DNA from: a virus
IMG/VR virus record: IMGVR_UViG_3300025141_000530
Span: 1-29,219 of that record
Direction: 5' to 3' (one strand)
Length of the DNA stretch: 29,219 nt
Under the pieces are notes generated by a model. That model was not told the DNA's origin. It made no database searches and worked only from the letters and a program-made list of their open reading frames with translations. The position numbers were made by a program, and so were the translations under genes. Positions 20,333-28,006 of the stretch are shown piece by piece; the stretch's first letter is position 1; the number at the start of each line of letters is the position of its first letter.

Positions 20333-23314
20333 ATGTCAGTAAAAAGCTTTAAATTTGTATCTCCCGGCGTTTTCATAAATGAAATTGATAATTCGTTTAT
20401 CCCCAAATCAGCAGACGCTATCGGGCCAGTTGTTATCGGTAGGGCTCGTCGCGGTCTAGCGATGCAGCCAGTAAAGGTACAATCATATTCGGAATTCGTT
20501 GAGATGTTTGGAAATACCGAACCCGGTATTGGTGGTGTGGGTGATGTGTATCGAAATGGTGGCAGCACTTCTCCAATGTACGGCACTTATGCCGCTAAAG
20601 CTTTTTTGCGCTCAAATGTGGCGCCCCTGACATACATTCGGCTTTTAGGACAACAGTCCAGCGGTAATGACGGTTCCACAGCCGCTCAAGCCGGCTGGAA
20701 AACATCAAACAACGCTGCTTCTGCCCTTGCCTCGAATGGAGGCGCTTATGGTCTTTGGGTTTGGCCCTCTTCATCTACCAACGTTCTTGGTGGTGATGTA
20801 ACAAAACCCGGTGTTCTTGCTGCTGTCTGGTATGCAGACAGTGCCACACAATTTGTTTTAAGTGGTACCGTTGCCGGCTTCAATCATCCTACTGGTGGTC
20901 TTGGCTGGGTAATCGCAAATGATACCAATAATGCTGGCTCTTTCACGGTTGAAGTTGCAAAGGACGGCTCTACCAACGAAAAGATTAGATTTAACTTTGA
21001 TGATTCTTCTGATCTTTTCATTCGCAAGCGGTTTCAGACTAACCCACAGCTTGCTTCGACAGCCGGCACCTTTTTCCCGGCAGGCGCATATCAGACTTAT
21101 TGGCTTGGAGAATCATTCGAACAGGAATTGAGAGACGGCCCTCAAACCGCTGGACGCTTCACGGACACCACCGGAAACGACTTAACGTCTCAGACCCAAG
21201 CCCTGCAGGGTGTCATGCTCCCCATCGCACTTAATAGTGCGGTAGGTACAGGTCCCCACAACATGTTGGGCCTTAGCGCTCAGGAAGCTAAGGCCGGCTG
21301 GTTTATTGGCCAGCACCTTGGTACTCCAACCGATTATGTCCCCCAAAACATGCAAAAACTGTTTAGACTTAAAGGTCGTGGACATGGTGAGTGGCTACAA
21401 AGAAACTGTAAGGTTTCAATTGAGAATATTAGAAAGTCTACCACTACTGCTAGTGAATATGGCTCATTTAGTGTTGTTCTCCGCGTGCTTTCTGATACCG
21501 ATAGCGCAGTTGAGGTAATGGAGCGTTTTGATAACTGTACATTAAATCCAGCCTCTCCCAATTTTATCTCGCGAGTAATTGGAGACAAGTATACGCAATG
21601 GGATACTACTGCTCGTCGTCTGAAGACTTATGGCGAATACCCGAATCAGTCAAAATTTGTATATGTTGAAATGAACTCCGATGTTGAAGGCGGCGCCACA
21701 GACCCCGAGCTTCTGCCTTTCGGTTATTTCGGGCCCCCCCGCTTCAAGAGTGGAACAAGTGTAACAGGTTCAGGCGATTTGGCCACCCAAGACTTAATGG
21801 TTTTTAATCCTGCTTCCGTAATTTATGGTACGCCTGTTACTGCTTCTAATTCCACCGGAAATGGCTACTATCTGTTCGGTAAGCTGCAGTCCGCCGCCTG
21901 GGATGGTACCCCCGATCCAGCGGCGGGTGGCACCCTAGGAATGACTGGTTCTATAGCCTTCCCTGTCGCACGACTTCGCCTTTCTGCCTCTGATGGTGGT
22001 TTGTCTGACCCCACGGATGGTTATTTTGGATTCCAAAACACAAGAGCAAACGGTAGCTCCAGAAACGATGTTAGTGTCGCAGGGGTACATCGCTCCTGGT
22101 ACACTGGCCAGGATGATGATCCAAGTTCGACTTCTGATGCCGGCGTAGAAGGCTATGCTTATGTTTTCTCGCTGGACAACGTTACTCTTGACTCGCCTAA
22201 GAGTACATATTTTTATCTCTCTGGCTCTCGTGTTGCTGGCACTAGTGTAACTAGCGCCTCCTACGGCGACTTGCTCGATAAGGGTTATGATCGCTTCACT
22301 GCTCCGTTCTTCGGCGGCTTTGACGGGTTTGATATTAGGAAGCCAGATCCTCTCCGCAATGGAGAAATGGGTTCTACTTCTACAGAATTCAATAGCTATC
22401 CTTATTATACTTATAAGAGAGCAATTGATACCGTAGCAGATCCTGAATCATTAGATATGAATGTGCTTACTGTTCCCGGCTTAACGACGGACGCATTAAC
22501 ACAGCATATGATTAATGTTTGTGAAGAGCGCGCAGATGCCATGGCACTTATTGACTTGGCTAACGTGTACATTCCTCCTCACGAGGCGCAAAAATCTAGC
22601 AAGGTTAATAGAATCGGTACTACGCCGAAACAGGCCGCGAATGCTCTTCGCGCCAGGAGAATTGATTCTAGCTATGGCGCCACATTCTATCCTTGGGTTC
22701 AAACCCGAGATGAAGCGTCTGGCGTTAATGTTTGGATACCGCCCTCTGTCGCAATGCTTGGTGTTCTTGGTACTTCTGAGGCACGTTCGGATCTTTGGTT
22801 TGCCCCCGCAGGCTTCAACCGCGGCGGCTTGAGCGATGGCGCAGCAGGAATTCCGATTACTGCTGTCACAGAGAAGTTAACCTCCAAGGAGCGCGACACT
22901 CTCTATGACGCACGGATTAATCCGATTGCCTCTTTCCCATCTAGTGGAATTGTGGTTTTCGGGCAGAAGACCCTCCAAGAGCGTCAATCTGCACTCGATA
23001 GAATTAATGTAAGAAGATTGGTAATTTACTTGAAGAAGCAGATTTCCATTCTCTCCACACAGATTCTTTTCGAGCAAAATGTCCAAGATACTTGGGCTCG
23101 CTTTAGAGGACTTATTGAGCCATTCTTAGCGAATGTCAAGGTTAGCTTCGGAATCACTGAGTTTAGATTGATTCTTGATGAATCCACTACTACTCCGGAT
23201 TTGGTTGACCAAAATATCTTGTATGCCAAGATTATGATTAAGCCCGCGCGCTCAATCGAATATATCGCAATTGACTTTGTGATTGCTTCCACGGGAGCAT
23301 CGTTTGATGATTAA
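20333..23314 (+). CDS. gp18: Contractile tail sheath protein, T4 gp18-like
   Basis: Polymerises around the tail tube and contracts on infection. The N-terminus (SPGVFINEIDNSF, VVIGRARRGLAMQPVKVQSY, EFVEMFG) and C-terminus (LVIYLKKQISILSTQILFEQ, WARFRGLIEPFLANV, KIMIKPARSIEYIAIDFVIA) are typical of sheath proteins. Length is 993 residues against 659 in T4; the excess lies in the middle, about residues 130-640, which is rich in Ser, Gly, Thr and Asp and probably forms surface-exposed domains. AAGGA precedes the ATG. It is placed in its own unit with the tube gene downstream, flanked by candidate promoter elements. Codon use looks like that of a highly expressed gene. Confidence 0.95.
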   Translation: MSVKSFKFVSPGVFINEIDNSFIPKSADAIGPVVIGRARRGLAMQPVKVQSYSEFVEMFGNTEPGIGGVGDVYRNGGSTSPMYGTYAAKAFLRSNVAPLTYIRLLGQQSSGNDGSTAAQAGWKTSNNAASALASNGGAYGLWVWPSSSTNVLGGDVTKPGVLAAVWYADSATQFVLSGTVAGFNHPTGGLGWVIANDTNNAGSFTVEVAKDGSTNEKIRFNFDDSSDLFIRKRFQTNPQLASTAGTFFPAGAYQTYWLGESFEQELRDGPQTAGRFTDTTGNDLTSQTQALQGVMLPIALNSAVGTGPHNMLGLSAQEAKAGWFIGQHLGTPTDYVPQNMQKLFRLKGRGHGEWLQRNCKVSIENIRKSTTTASEYGSFSVVLRVLSDTDSAVEVMERFDNCTLNPASPNFISRVIGDKYTQWDTTARRLKTYGEYPNQSKFVYVEMNSDVEGGATDPELLPFGYFGPPRFKSGTSVTGSGDLATQDLMVFNPASVIYGTPVTASNSTGNGYYLFGKLQSAAWDGTPDPAAGGTLGMTGSIAFPVARLRLSASDGGLSDPTDGYFGFQNTRANGSSRNDVSVAGVHRSWYTGQDDDPSSTSDAGVEGYAYVFSLDNVTLDSPKSTYFYLSGSRVAGTSVTSASYGDLLDKGYDRFTAPFFGGFDGFDIRKPDPLRNGEMGSTSTEFNSYPYYTYKRAIDTVADPESLDMNVLTVPGLTTDALTQHMINVCEERADAMALIDLANVYIPPHEAQKSSKVNRIGTTPKQAANALRARRIDSSYGATFYPWVQTRDEASGVNVWIPPSVAMLGVLGTSEARSDLWFAPAGFNRGGLSDGAAGIPITAVTEKLTSKERDTLYDARINPIASFPSSGIVVFGQKTLQERQSALDRINVRRLVIYLKKQISILSTQILFEQNVQDTWARFRGLIEPFLANVKVSFGITEFRLILDESTTTPDLVDQNILYAKIMIKPARSIEYIAIDFVIASTGASFDD

Positions 23315-23387: not shown

Positions 23388-23990
23388 ATGCCATTCTGGG
23401 CCTCAGACTTTTCATCGACCGACACCGCGATCACCGAACCGAAAAGAAAATTTAGATTTTTAGTTAGATTCACCGGCATCACCGGCGGTAGTACCGGCGA
23501 CAGTACCGCACTTTGGTACGCCAAGACTGCCGCTAAGCCGTCCTTTACAATTGCTGCCACTGAACATAAGTATTTGAATCATACTTTTTATTATCCAGGA
23601 GCAGTTACATGGAACGAAGTCGCAATTACTTTAGTCGATCCGCTGGAGCCTGATGTGGCCGGTAAGCTCTCCCAGATTGTTAAGGCAGCAGGCTATGTGC
23701 CCCCCGGTACCGCGGATGATCGAAGCACCATGACCAAGGGTAAAGCTGCCCAGGCATTAGGCCAAGTCTCAATCACTCAGATTGATCATACAGGCACGAA
23801 GGAACTTGAAACATGGACGCTTTTTAATGCTTGGATCTCAGATGTAAAATATGGTGATTTGGCTTATGGCGATGATGAATTAGTAGAGCTATCAGTCACC
23901 CTGAAGTATGATTGGGCGAAGATCGAAGACTCCACGGGAACTACGGCATTCGAAGGCCCACTCCAGACTGGGACAGGCGCAGAATCCTAG
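23388..23990 (+). CDS. gp19: Tail tube protein, T4 gp19-like
   Basis: Subunit of the inner tail tube through which DNA passes. The 200-residue product is slightly longer than T4 gp19 (163). It has features of the myovirus tube family: an N-terminal FRFLVRFTGI strand, KTAAKPSFTIAATEHKYLNH (the family's conserved Lys-x-x-x-Pro region), TFYYPGAVTWNEVAITLVDP, and a C-terminal FNAWISDVKYGDLAYGDDEL followed by VTLKYDWAKIE. AAGGAG precedes the ATG by 10 bases; an ATG at 23381 lies in another frame. It follows the sheath gene, as in T4. Confidence 0.92.
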   Translation: MPFWASDFSSTDTAITEPKRKFRFLVRFTGITGGSTGDSTALWYAKTAAKPSFTIAATEHKYLNHTFYYPGAVTWNEVAITLVDPLEPDVAGKLSQIVKAAGYVPPGTADDRSTMTKGKAAQALGQVSITQIDHTGTKELETWTLFNAWISDVKYGDLAYGDDELVELSVTLKYDWAKIEDSTGTTAFEGPLQTGTGAES

Positions 23991-24028: not shown

Positions 24029-24886
24029 TTGTCACGCAATAAAGATCGCCTGGGAACGGGAACCACAAAACCTGAAAACAACAGTCCCCCTCCCCAAGCG
24101 TTACAACAAGATAATCCGGGATTTTCATTTGTAGTCCCGACAGAATTCGTAGATCTGCCTTCGAACGGCTTATATTATACTGAAGGCCATCCATTACATG
24201 GCCAAGACTGTATAGAGATTAAACAGATGACCGCCAAAGAAGAAGATATTTTGACGTCAAGAACGTTGCTTAAAAAAGGTGTTGCTTTAGACCGCGTACT
24301 CCAAAGCTTAATAATTGACAAGAGTATTAACACAGACACTTTACTAATAGGCGATAGAAATGCGATAATCATTGCTGCCCGCCGGTCAGCTTATGGAAAT
24401 ATATACGAAACAAGTGTTACCTGCCCCGGCTGTGCTGCAGTACAGGCTCATTCTTTTGATTTAAACGAAGCAGAAGTTTATTTAGGCGATGACTATGAAG
24501 GGTTTGATGTTGTTGATAATAGTGATGGTACATTTAATGCAACCCTTCCAAAGACACAAGTAGAAGTTACATTTAGGCTTTTAACTGGAACAGACGAGAA
24601 AAAAATGTTAAACAATGCAAACAAAAAGAAAGTCGATATTTACGAAAACATAATAACAACTCAATTAAACAATATTGTAGTCGCGGTTAATGGAGACAAC
24701 AGCCCACAAGCCATTAAGTATTTAGTTGAAAATATTCCGTCCATGGACTCTCGTCATCTTAGAGTAATAAACAAACTAGTAACCCCAAATATTGATCTTA
24801 CACAGAATTTTGGATGCGACGAGTGTGATTATGAAGTAGACATGGAGGTTCCGCTTTCCGCGGACTTTTTTTGGCCTCAGTCCTGA
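24029..24886 (+). CDS. gp26-like baseplate/tail-assembly protein with two CxxC motifs
   Basis: A 285-residue protein of the T4 gp26 baseplate type (recalled as Pfam T4_baseplate). It starts at TTG with AGAGGTG just upstream; no ATG or GTG start fits. After a Pro/Gln-rich leader, FVVPTEFVDLPSNGLYYTEG and IEIKQMTAKEEDILTSRTLL are the family hallmarks. Cys132-Pro-Gly-Cys135 and Cys263-Asp-Glu-Cys266 could form one zinc site. It ends in PLSADFFWPQS at a T7 run, where a +1 shift would continue into the ORF at 24840-25115. Its place between tube and tape measure is that of tail-assembly chaperones in other tailed phages. The family call is fairly sure; a chaperone role is inference. Confidence 0.83.
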   Translation: MSRNKDRLGTGTTKPENNSPPPQALQQDNPGFSFVVPTEFVDLPSNGLYYTEGHPLHGQDCIEIKQMTAKEEDILTSRTLLKKGVALDRVLQSLIIDKSINTDTLLIGDRNAIIIAARRSAYGNIYETSVTCPGCAAVQAHSFDLNEAEVYLGDDYEGFDVVDNSDGTFNATLPKTQVEVTFRLLTGTDEKKMLNNANKKKVDIYENIITTQLNNIVVAVNGDNSPQAIKYLVENIPSMDSRHLRVINKLVTPNIDLTQNFGCDECDYEVDMEVPLSADFFWPQS

Positions 24887-25115
24887 ATATATAGAGAACG
24901 TGTATGAGCAGTTCTTCTTTTTAAAATATTCTGGCGGATGGTCGTTCTCTGAAGCCTATAATCTGCCCATTGGTTTGCGCGAGTGGTTTGTTAAACGCTT
25001 GTCGACACAATTAAAGGATGAAGCTGAGGCGATTGAGCAGGCCCAGAAGGGCACCGGTAAGTCACAGACGCTTACCCCCTATAATAATCCGATGCCGGCA
25101 TCAATAGTTAAATGA
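24840..25115 (+). CDS. Short +1-frame ORF before the tape measure; likely frameshift extension
   Basis: Open from 24840 to the TGA at 25113. If translated alone it could begin at GTG 24900 and give 71 residues, but only a weak AGAGA lies upstream and no good ribosome site is visible. The residues just before that GTG (FFGLSPEYIENV) form a natural helix leading into YEQFFFLKYSGGWSFSEAYN then LPIGLREWFVKRL, so they look like real coding sequence. This argues for expression as an extension of the gp26-like protein through the T7 run. In T4-like and other phages, small proteins at this place help tail assembly. A terminator overlaps its stop codon. Confidence 0.7.
   Translation, partial: TWRFRFPRTFFGLSPEYIENVYEQFFFLKYSGGWSFSEAYNLPIGLREWFVKRLSTQLKDEAEAIEQAQKGTGKSQTLTPYNNPMPASIVK
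24866..24874 (+). other. Candidate +1 ribosomal frameshift site (TTTTTTTGG)
   Basis: In frame 0 the site reads GAC TTT TTT TGG CCT CAG TCC TGA. A +1 slip of Phe-tRNA on the T7 run gives TTT GGC CTC AGT CCT GAA and joins FFGLSPEYIENVYEQFFF in the downstream frame. The +1 frame is open from 24840. A fused product would have about 361 residues. A homopolymer sequencing error would look the same. Confidence 0.42.
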
Positions 25116-25141
25116 CAGGGTAAAGCCCTGTCTTTTTTTTT
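25114..25141 (+). terminator. Rho-independent terminator before the tape measure gene
   Basis: GACAGGG (25114-25120) pairs perfectly with CCCTGTC (25126-25132), loop TAAAG, followed by nine T residues. It overlaps the stop codon of the upstream ORF and ends the tube/gp26-like unit. Confidence 0.93.
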
Positions 25142-25183: not shown

Positions 25184-28006
25184 ATGGCCAACGGCGACTC
25201 CGACGATCCTAGCGTCCCCCCCGCTCCCCCCGCTCCAACTGATACCGACGTTGCTAATATTGAAGCCGTTGTTGAGGCGTCCAAAGAGGGCTTAAAAGTC
25301 AGGCGCGAAGAGCTTGAAGTTCTCAAAGAAATTGCTCGGCGCCACAAGGAGAACATAGACCTTTCTGATGAGCAGAACACCCGACTAATAAGCATCTACG
25401 AGGCGGAAAAGACTCTCCAGCAGGTTCTCGATGAACAGCAAAAACTTGCGAAGGGTATTAACTTTGAAAAGTTAAAAGAGCTAGAAACTGAACAAAATCT
25501 TCTAGACGGCTACAAACAAGGTGGCCGCGCCGCCAAATTAAAGAAAGAAATTGCCGAGTCGGAAAAGAAAATTCAGGAACTGCAACTCGGGGTTCTTAAA
25601 GACCAGTTAACGTCCCTAGATAACCAACTCGCCGCCGGAGAGACAGTAGACGAGAAGGGACAGGATCTGGTCGAAACGCAGAAAGAAGTCCAGGCCGCAA
25701 TTGACAAAATAACGAAGGCGTTGGAGGATCAGGCCGACCTTCAAGATCAAATAAAGGATGGCGAGGAAGCGATAAATAAAATTAAGGCCAAGGGCCTATC
25801 GATTCTCACCAGCGTGTATACTAAGACATTAGGTGTAGCTACAGCCGCTTTCGATGCGCAAAAACAATTTGAGCGCACTTTTCAGATGCCGCAAGAATAT
25901 ACAGATCAATTAGGCGAGCTTCACAAGGACTTGGCCATTACTGGCGTTTCGATGAAAGACCTTACTGAGGGTACCGGAGAGTTAATTAATAGTGTTACTG
26001 ATTTTACCATGGCTTCTGAAGGTCAAAGGAAGGCATTACAGGATACGACCGCACGATTATCGAAGCTTGGTATAGCCGCGTCCGACACAGCAAAGGGCGT
26101 TCAAAACTCCATGAAGCTGTTTGGACAATCTATAACAGAAGCCGAACAAACCTCCCGAGAACTAGTTTCAGTCGCGAACGAATTAGGCGTTGCCCCAAAA
26201 CAAATGGCAGCAGAATATGCATCGATGGGTACTCAGTTAGCAAAATTCGGTACCGAGGGAACTAAAACATTTAAAGAATTAGCGAGAATTCAAAAGCTTA
26301 CTGGCATGGAAATGAGCAAGGTAGTTCAGATTGCCTCTAAGTTTGATACTTTTGAAGACGCAGCGACGGCGACAGGAAAGCTTAATGCTGCTTTGGGCGG
26401 CAACTTCGTTAATGCGATGGATATGATGATGGACACTGATCCAGTATCCAGATTTGATACTATTAGGGGCGCAATCGAAGACGCGGGACTTTCCTTCGAT
26501 ACAATGTCTTATTACCAGAAGCAGTTTTATACTGAAGCCTTGGGTCTTTCTGACGTCGGTGATTTGGCTTTGATGATGAGTGGTCGAACCGATCTAATGA
26601 CCGACGCAACACAAGCAAGCGCCGCATCGCAGATAGAACTGGCCGAACGCCAGCAAAAAGTAATGAATATTTCAGAACAATGGAACGCAATGATTGCTAA
26701 AAATTCAGATAAAATAATTGAATTAATGCATACGGTTCAGGGCTTTATAGCGGGCCTTATGGAGTATGCTTGGCTGATTAAAGGCTTAATTATGATATAT
26801 GCTGCTTATAATGCTGTCCTGGCAACGAATGCAGTCGTTACGGCCGCCATCGGTCTTAAAGTAAAATGGACCGCCGCGCAGTTGTTGATACAGGAGGGCG
26901 CCACCATAAGTTCAGCAATCGCCCAAGCCTTTTTTGGGGCATCCTCCACCGTCGCCTCTGGTGGCGCCAAGCTTTTCACTAGAGCACTACTTCCATTGGT
27001 CGCAGGTCTTGCTGCTTTTGCTTTAGTTATGATGATTGCTTCACCTTCTTTATTAGTTATTGAGCTAGTTGCTTTCGGCGCAGCGCTATATCTCCTTGGA
27101 ACTATTCTTCCCGGTGTCTCACCAGGACTCACTACGGCCGGCTTGGCCATGATGGTATTTGGAGCAGGATTGTTTACTGTTCTGGGCCCAATTGCTCTTG
27201 TGGTTGCCTCGGTGGCGTTACTAGCTGCCGGCATCGGATTTATGGCCGCAGGATTTGCAAAGATGTTTGCTGCCGTAGAAATACCTAAATTAGTGGCATT
27301 AGGCAAATTTTTTGTCTCCATGGGCGCGGGTGTTGGGTTCATAATAGCAGGAGCCATAGGCATGGGACTCTTTGCCGCATCGATGGTAGCTTTCGGAATT
27401 TCTCTTGCGTTTGTTAGTGGAAAAAAACTAGCCTCTCTTGCCACAATTATGGAATCGATGGCTCTGCTTCAAGGAGAAGGCCTAAAAGATTCAGCAACCG
27501 GTCTTAAGGGCATTACTGCGGCAGTTGCTGATGTCAAGAATATAAAAGCGGTGGAAGGAATGGCCGAAGCATTTGATCGTCTTGGCGAGTCCGTTGCCGG
27601 CGTGGTCACCCCCATGGAAGTACTAGTCGCAGCAATGGGAAGCTTAACCGAACCACAGTGGAATGCCCCGGCACAATCATTTAGCACCATATCGACATCC
27701 ATCAATGAGCTTCCCTTATTGAAAACTACACTAGTAACAGCAGCACTTGGTGAAGCAGCCATAGCAGCAGTAGCTTTAGCACCAATGGTAGCGGCATTTG
27801 GCGGGGGTGCTGCCGCAATAGGAGCCGGCACAGCCGCAATCGGATCCGCTTTCGGCGGCAACACAGGAGGCGGCAACACAGGAGGCGGCAACACAGGAGG
27901 CGGCGGCGCGCGAACAGAGCCCATTCAAATTGTAGTAGAAATAGATGGAGACATTTTCAAGAAGAAAGTGGAGAAGGTAATGGGCGAATACCACAAGGAA
28001 GGATAA
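25184..28006 (+). CDS. Tape measure protein, T4 gp29-type position
   Basis: Sets tail length and is thought to be threaded inside the tube. The 940 residues show a Pro-rich start, a long coiled coil (about 25-200), a helical middle with GKLNAALGGNFVNAMDMMMD and YYQKQFYTEALGLSDVGDLA, then several strongly hydrophobic segments (about 520-760, such as PLVAGLAAFALVMMIASPSL), typical of tape measures that may insert in the host membrane. The C-terminus has a Gly/Asn/Thr repeat (GGNTG three times) and a short basic alpha/beta end (IQIVVEIDGDIFKKKVEKVM). Longer than T4 gp29 (590), which suggests a longer tail. GAGG lies 9 bases before the ATG. The upstream tube/chaperone-like genes fit. Confidence 0.9.
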   Translation: MANGDSDDPSVPPAPPAPTDTDVANIEAVVEASKEGLKVRREELEVLKEIARRHKENIDLSDEQNTRLISIYEAEKTLQQVLDEQQKLAKGINFEKLKELETEQNLLDGYKQGGRAAKLKKEIAESEKKIQELQLGVLKDQLTSLDNQLAAGETVDEKGQDLVETQKEVQAAIDKITKALEDQADLQDQIKDGEEAINKIKAKGLSILTSVYTKTLGVATAAFDAQKQFERTFQMPQEYTDQLGELHKDLAITGVSMKDLTEGTGELINSVTDFTMASEGQRKALQDTTARLSKLGIAASDTAKGVQNSMKLFGQSITEAEQTSRELVSVANELGVAPKQMAAEYASMGTQLAKFGTEGTKTFKELARIQKLTGMEMSKVVQIASKFDTFEDAATATGKLNAALGGNFVNAMDMMMDTDPVSRFDTIRGAIEDAGLSFDTMSYYQKQFYTEALGLSDVGDLALMMSGRTDLMTDATQASAASQIELAERQQKVMNISEQWNAMIAKNSDKIIELMHTVQGFIAGLMEYAWLIKGLIMIYAAYNAVLATNAVVTAAIGLKVKWTAAQLLIQEGATISSAIAQAFFGASSTVASGGAKLFTRALLPLVAGLAAFALVMMIASPSLLVIELVAFGAALYLLGTILPGVSPGLTTAGLAMMVFGAGLFTVLGPIALVVASVALLAAGIGFMAAGFAKMFAAVEIPKLVALGKFFVSMGAGVGFIIAGAIGMGLFAASMVAFGISLAFVSGKKLASLATIMESMALLQGEGLKDSATGLKGITAAVADVKNIKAVEGMAEAFDRLGESVAGVVTPMEVLVAAMGSLTEPQWNAPAQSFSTISTSINELPLLKTTLVTAALGEAAIAAVALAPMVAAFGGGAAAIGAGTAAIGSAFGGNTGGGNTGGGNTGGGGARTEPIQIVVEIDGDIFKKKVEKVMGEYHKEG
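27854..27898 (+). repeat. Three perfect 15-bp tandem repeats in the tape measure gene
   Basis: GGCGGCAACACAGGA occurs three times in tandem (27854, 27869, 27884), encoding Gly-Gly-Asn-Thr-Gly units, a flexible linker before the C-terminal domain. The copy number could vary between relatives. Confidence 0.95.

Follow-up and report, generated by a model that had tools for sequence, protein, structure and literature searches.

Introduction

In phage lambda, the gene lying between the tail tube and tape measure genes yields the tail assembly chaperones gpG and gpGT, the longer of which is made by a -1 frameshift. According to a 2016 review, long-tailed phages other than T4 widely conserve the G/GT shift; the roles that it gives to the short and long lambda forms are our model for analogy (PMC5009743). 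Both T4 gp26 and T4 gp51 belong to family PF12322 and only gp51 carries a C-terminal extension; judged by these sequences, T4 therefore appears to encode the short (gp26) and long (gp51) forms as two genes, with no shift. The two-gene T4 solution and -1 shifting are already known: PMC10885494 and PMC12846349 credit Vladimirov, Gautam and Davidson (2022) with T4-like chaperone genes, with the finding that some of these phages have distinct genes for the short and long forms, and with poly-T -1 signals. The cyanophages and KVP40-like phages considered below shift -1 at U UUU UUN.

Natural +1 shifting may be compared with prfB, the gene of release factor 2, where a P-site tRNA slips on CUU-UGA with a Shine-Dalgarno (SD) element 3 nt upstream and a stop codon in the A site. 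A +1 shift has been described as very likely for the chaperone of the haloarchaeal myovirus HSTV-2 (PMC5009743), which differs from the present phages in its host domain. In test constructs, hairpins close to the ribosomal E site raise +1 and lower -1 shifting, and a SARS coronavirus element naturally lowers -1 (PMC6321510, PMC3639245); in 70S extracts an artificial hairpin placed upstream stimulated +1 shifting about 60% as strongly as an internal SD did (PMC6321510). At the transcriptional level, the Roseiflexus IS630 element has a stem-loop 5' adjacent to a slippery run, and its product has lost one base (PMC5009743).

The locus described here resembles lambda in gene order and the T4-type phages in its PF12322 protein and homologous C-terminal domain, but it differs from both in its +1 direction and, from lambda, also in its gp26-type protein and 5' hairpin. 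It shares with prfB the YUU-U slip and the SD-like sequence upstream, whereas the SD-like sequence lies 20 nt off, on the far side of a hairpin, and the A-site codon is UGG, UAC or UUC. The +1 direction across a large clade, together with its 5' hairpin, is apparently new.

Results

The window is the whole 29,219-nucleotide stretch of the IMG/VR virus record IMGVR_UViG_3300025141_000530 that was analysed (positions 1 to 29,219), and all features below lie on its plus strand. The tail tube protein gene (23388..23990; phrog_4542 tail tube, E=1.3e-28; Phage_T4_gp19, E=1.6e-5, below its cut-off) is followed by a gene for a gp26-like protein of 285 aa, the putative short chaperone (TAC-N; 24029..24886), which starts with TTG and ends with TGA at 24884-24886. 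This protein matches PF12322 T4_baseplate in Pfam (E=1.3e-15; 58.1 bits against a gathering cut-off of 24.5) as well as phrog_150, baseplate hub (E=3.6e-17), and the TTG start is found in 71/71 relatives with a placeable start. The gp26-like gene and its extension thus lie between the major tail tube gene and a large ORF at the tape measure place (25184..28006), a candidate tape measure protein of 940 aa by position and length. In Flavobacterium phage immuto and in SP-15 the corresponding gene carries a tail tape measure annotation, and the family searches that typed the tail tube found no family match for the ORF itself.

The gp26-like ORF ends PLSADFFWPQS* at a run of seven T located exactly at 24866..24872, and an open +1 frame, spanning 24840 to 25115, reads FFGLSPEYIENVYEQFFF, both as the initial annotation had reported and as confirmed by the sequence and the ORF list of the window. 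Beyond the end of the gp26-like ORF this frame continues FFGLSPEYIENVYEQ to 25115. The only listed start of the +1 ORF is the GTG at 24900, with no clear ribosome site ahead of it. The extension (24873..25115; stop TGA 25113-25115) would contribute 80 aa, as a chaperone C-terminal domain, to a fusion of 361 aa; the proposed P-site codon is UUU at 24869-24871 and the A-site codon UGG at 24872-24874. Upstream of the run lie an SD-like GGAGG (24844..24848), 20 nt 5' of the P-site UUU, and a hairpin, TCCGC-TTTCC-GCGGA (24850..24864), which ends one nucleotide before the T run.

A search with the +1 segment gave the same frame relation in 80/80 contigs (76 with GACTTTTTTTGGCCT, 2 with GATTTCTTTTGGCCT and 2 with GACTTTTTTTGGACT). 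Because loci should not be chosen by their junction, the second search used an alignment of the gp26 body only; the +1 relation was present in 77/78 scorable loci, the exception being L148, which reads the extension in -1. Altogether, 140 distinct relatives have the +1 relation at [TC]TT-T(GG/AC/TC), and a combined extension HMM built on the +1 and -1 sets matches 256/261 loci, 166 in +1 and 90 in -1. Most of the loci are metagenomic fragments of related sequences, so these counts are not independent events, and clustering reduces this kinship without removing it. By far the commonest site is UUU UGG CCU (135), followed by UUU UAC CCU (17), UUU UGG CCA (4), CUU UGG CCU (3), UUU UGG ACU (2) and UUU UUC CCU (2); the three CUU-U relatives have exactly the slip codon of prfB. 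Among isolates, the T7GGCCT of the window recurs in Microcystis phage Mel-JY01, and the +1 junction of Flavobacterium phage immuto reads TTTCTTTGGCCT.

As the initial annotation had anticipated, relatives keep the T run and the frame relation as well as the FFGLxxxY segment. Neither of the two contrary outcomes that it had named was seen: a single ORF across the junction was looked for and found in 0 relatives, and many lack any start codon for the short ORF. Its proposal of a +1 slip on TTT at seven T is supported as to the direction. What is conserved is UUU-U (or CUU-U) with GG, AC or UC after it rather than the seven T themselves, and the slip element first described was incomplete, since the upstream hairpin and GGAGG also belong to it. 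All seven T are kept at 129/140 sites, T7 or T8 at 133/140, and the first F codon is TTT at 136/140 sites as against 78% gene-wide. The +1 relation also survives where the run is broken to TTTCTTTT, TTCTTTT or TTTCTTT, and runs of only 3-4 T occur on four separate tree branches (L038/L066, L157, L178, L011/L161; six loci) with the frame relation kept; in all six, a P-site YUU followed by U still permits +1 re-pairing.

Just past the slip, the 70 loci of the window clade have the +1 Gly in 70/70 and the +1 Leu (CTN) in 70/70 through synonymous changes, while the frame-0 codon that overlaps this Leu varies between D, N, K, Q and E. In the 76 gp26 genes of the window clade, synonymous variation is near expectation (median ratio 0.93) except in the start-codon region and the last 11 codons. 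Constrained codons before the junction are GAG (76/76), CCG (70/76), GCG (62), GAC (73), TTT (74), TTT (76) and CCT (74); the first of these, the E codon in the GGAGG block, is GAG in 37% of cases gene-wide. This constrained block holds both the GGAGG and the hairpin.

The shifted frame was scanned between its last stop codon ahead of the slip and the 12th codon beyond it, and 83 distinct loci, 32 of them in +1, have no ATG, GTG or TTG there. Within the window clade, the shifted frame has an ATG nine codons in at 53/70 distinct loci, a slightly later start at three more and no start in that stretch at 13/70. The 83 loci without a possible start, the conservation of the +1 frame past the slip and the synonymous constraint together indicate that a fusion is very probably made.

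For the hairpin, the 30 nt before the slip were compared with synonymous shuffles. Among +1 loci, 19/60 clusters reached p<=0.05, about a third being individually significant, and the combined Stouffer value, calculated on capped p-values, was 1.6e-10. No such excess was found in the -1 loci (4/60 clusters) or at six control offsets in the same genes (2-8 of 71-108). In clear cases the hairpin lies 0-3 nt from the U run, and in some relatives the stem is strong but unlike that of the window in sequence, as in L179 (GTTGCGGTC-CCTGT-GACCGCAAC), L153 (CGATATCCC-GTTT-GGGGTATCG) and L120 (GACATCC-CTAT-GGATGTC). In the stem shared by L171, L178, L179 and L181, 3/7 pairs are changed on both sides and 96% of cells pair, compared to 21-50% in slid controls; a second set of six loci is less informative, and covariation on fixed columns has limited power here, as the register of the stem varies among lineages and each set holds few loci.

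The GGAGG is invariant in the window clade, where pairing with the anti-SD reaches -10.3, against -5.6 in synonymous shuffles. Relative to the P-site codon, the excess over shuffles lies 18-20 nt upstream for the window clade, about 27 nt upstream for the distant +1 loci and 9-10 nt upstream, a dnaX-like spacing, for the -1 loci. GGAGG could alternatively pair with GGCCU and so enclose the U run; both are nearly invariant, which places this pairing beyond the reach of covariation. A search for a stimulatory structure on the 3' side was negative, RNAalifold giving -1.6 kcal/mol and the downstream z lying between -1.1 and -1.8.

The gp26-like part and the extension were folded separately with AlphaFold, giving pLDDT 85 for the former and pLDDT 79 for the latter, which is modelled as three helices. 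The top Foldseek match of the gp26-like model in the PDB is the HK97 tail assembly chaperone 2OB9 (E 0.21, prob 0.90). VIA ranked 3FGX (Z 6.3, rmsd 4.4, 88 aligned), 2OB9 (5.6, 4.0, 95) and YqbN 3KLU (5.4, 5.6, 87) highest, the next match having Z 3.9; every Z is under 8 and these are middling scores. We take 3FGX and YqbN to be XkdN-like phage tail chaperones. A PDB match by sequence was not found, and the fold search with the extension model gave no useful match. The extension scores 16.5 bits against DUF6760 (PF20546; E=0.009), below the cut-off of 27. Residues 211-248 of T4 gp51 match the extension HMM with an i-Evalue of 5.5e-8, calculated for a search space of one sequence, where the best of the shuffled controls reached 0.045. 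Gene order, the supportive HK97 chaperone fold match and the homology of the extension to the gp51 C-terminus point to a probable chaperone pair of the G/GT type, in agreement with the earlier suggestion that a gp26-type protein is the equivalent of G/GT here.

A search with cyanophage-type gp26 proteins, together with a set of named phages, yielded a sister group (cyanophages, pelagiphages, KVP40-like phages) that carries a homologous extension in -1. The shift site is U UUU UUN in 88/90 of its loci: U UUU UUC in 70, U UUU UUU in 17 and U UUU UUA in 1 (L210). Compared as profiles, the -1 and +1 extensions match with 98.8% probability (E=5e-17). Mapped on a tree built from 190 sequences, the shift direction requires only 3 changes; shuffled labels require about 60. 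The +1 sequences cluster in a single large group separate from the -1 group of T4 type, with long branches that leave the deep order uncertain. Direction varies within the G/GT kind of chaperone, and therefore +1 marks a variant, with -1 a feature of a sub-type.

Short ORFs just after gp26 are annotated as gp51 or hub assembly catalyst in P-SSM2, Syn33 and HTVC008M (L099, L100, L101), and they look like -1 frameshift extensions of gp26 rather than separate genes. In Klebsiella phage KFM-TASP06 and Salmonella phage SeF3a (L108, L109) a long open -1 frame follows the gp26-like gene; its junction (ATT TTC ATT TAA) has no U UUU UUN heptamer and its match to the extension HMM is weak.

SagM-GXN1 (L012), SP-15 (L013) and LR756508 are +1 by frame with less clear sites, possibly UUU-C; L012 and L013 are distant relatives, as is the megaphage record LR756511 (L014), which reads -1 near U UUU UUC. 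The exceptional L148:2432-3471, inside the +1 clade, has its extension in the -1 frame (AAT TTC TTC TGG CCT TCC CGA TAG), and either its direction has reversed or the assembly contains an indel. A scan of genome contigs for bacterial relatives gave one distant locus, L271, and tblastn against plasmids found no relative.

Discussion

We hypothesize that the window carries a lambda-like (G/GT) gene for tail assembly chaperones, based on a gp26-type (PF12322) protein, in which the ribosome slips +1 with a push from the 5' hairpin, and we put the probability of this reading at roughly three in four. Most ribosomes would end the short form at TGA 24884. Some would slip one base forward while UGG waits in the A site, the peptidyl-tRNA-Phe re-pairing from UUU (24869-24871) to UUU (24870-24872). 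Translation in +1 would then give the 361-aa long form with its additional three-helix domain and ADFFGLSPEYIENVYEQ as the peptide across the junction. Behind the ribosome, the refolding hairpin, with GGAGG at its base in the window clade, may supply the forward push. By analogy with lambda, coating of the tape measure would fall to the short form, and recruitment of tail tube subunits to the long form. Such a conserved one-letter-forward skip most likely gives a short and a long tail-assembly helper in a large group of bacterial viruses, many of them marine.

Could RNA polymerase, instead of the ribosome, make the slip? The nascent hairpin might cause it to drop one U from U7, and the resulting U6 mRNA would encode the same long protein, so that the locus would still be a two-product chaperone gene, recoded at transcription. 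This is the main rival, which we consider improbable. The layout is like that of Roseiflexus IS630, where GCGGGCgcaaGCCCGC stands 5' adjacent to T5C5 and transcripts lack one base (PMC5009743). T7 or T8 and the TTT codon are kept more than a ribosomal UUU-U site strictly needs, and the hairpin adjoining the U tract, which our scan calls terminator-like, also resembles a polymerase-slippage stem-loop or a terminator. Two further points weigh against our own reading: the hairpin is individually significant in only about a third of clusters, and an SD spacing of 20 nt, unless reduced by the hairpin, matches neither the 3 nt known for +1 nor the roughly 10 nt known for -1 shifts. Against polymerase slippage, the frame relation survives in relatives with 3-4 T on four branches, three of these loci (L038, L066, L178) also keeping the hairpin, whereas the IS630 run is T5C5 and realignment over C needs an rC:dA mismatch reported as non-viable at that site (PMC5009743). 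It also gives the selected SD-like sequence no role, and the sister phages have canonical ribosomal -1 heptamers at the same place. Ribosomal +1 slippage is favoured because of the short-run loci, the SD-like signal, the sister -1 heptamers and the stimulation by upstream hairpins in 70S extracts.

The remaining explanations are far less probable. The extension might be an independent downstream gene, re-initiated after the TGA at its own start (GTG 24900, or the ATG nine codons in for most relatives) with no fusion made, and both the frequency of that ATG and the name gp51 given to the short ORF by cyanophage annotators speak for it. This is very unlikely, as FFGLxxxY is conserved in the shifted frame upstream of any start, the synonymous constraint and the hairpin also lie upstream, T4 gp51 has the domain fused in frame, and the 83 loci without an upstream or nearby start codon led us to reject an independent start. 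A -2 ribosomal slip on the U run would add one residue (FFFGL) and re-pairs on plain U7 as perfectly as +1; broken-run relatives (TTC TTT TGG, TTT CTT TGG) allow +1 re-pairing and not -2, which makes this slip just as hard to credit. A sequencing or assembly error, or a broken gene, is suggested by the homopolymer at the break, with one ORF as the true sequence. The relatives refute it, leaving it the least probable of all: the same break occurs in 140 distinct sequences including the isolates Mel-JY01 and immuto, with frames conserved on both sides, and the seven T are not a read error because contigs of many different metagenomes, and the isolate Mel-JY01, show exactly this run.

Since +1, -1 and two-gene solutions all occur in the wider gp26 family, a single gene allows tests of how recoding direction evolves. 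Since the hairpins of PMC6321510 and PMC3639245 are test constructs, apart from the SARS coronavirus element, the 5' hairpin at these natural +1 sites would be their natural counterpart and a compact model for a ribosome moved by an upstream structure. Annotation of the chaperone locus should change, as the short gp51 ORFs of cyanophages, like many hypothetical proteins encoded ahead of the tape measure gene, probably do not represent genes of their own.

Two minor observations concern the surroundings of the locus. A terminator-like stem followed by T9 (25114..25132, with its tail to about 25142; GACAGGGTAAAGCCCTGTC) lies between the extension and the tape measure gene, outside the slip site, and a similar stem was scored in 18/64 window-clade loci. 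The tail sheath protein of the window (20333-23314) is unusually long, at 993 aa.
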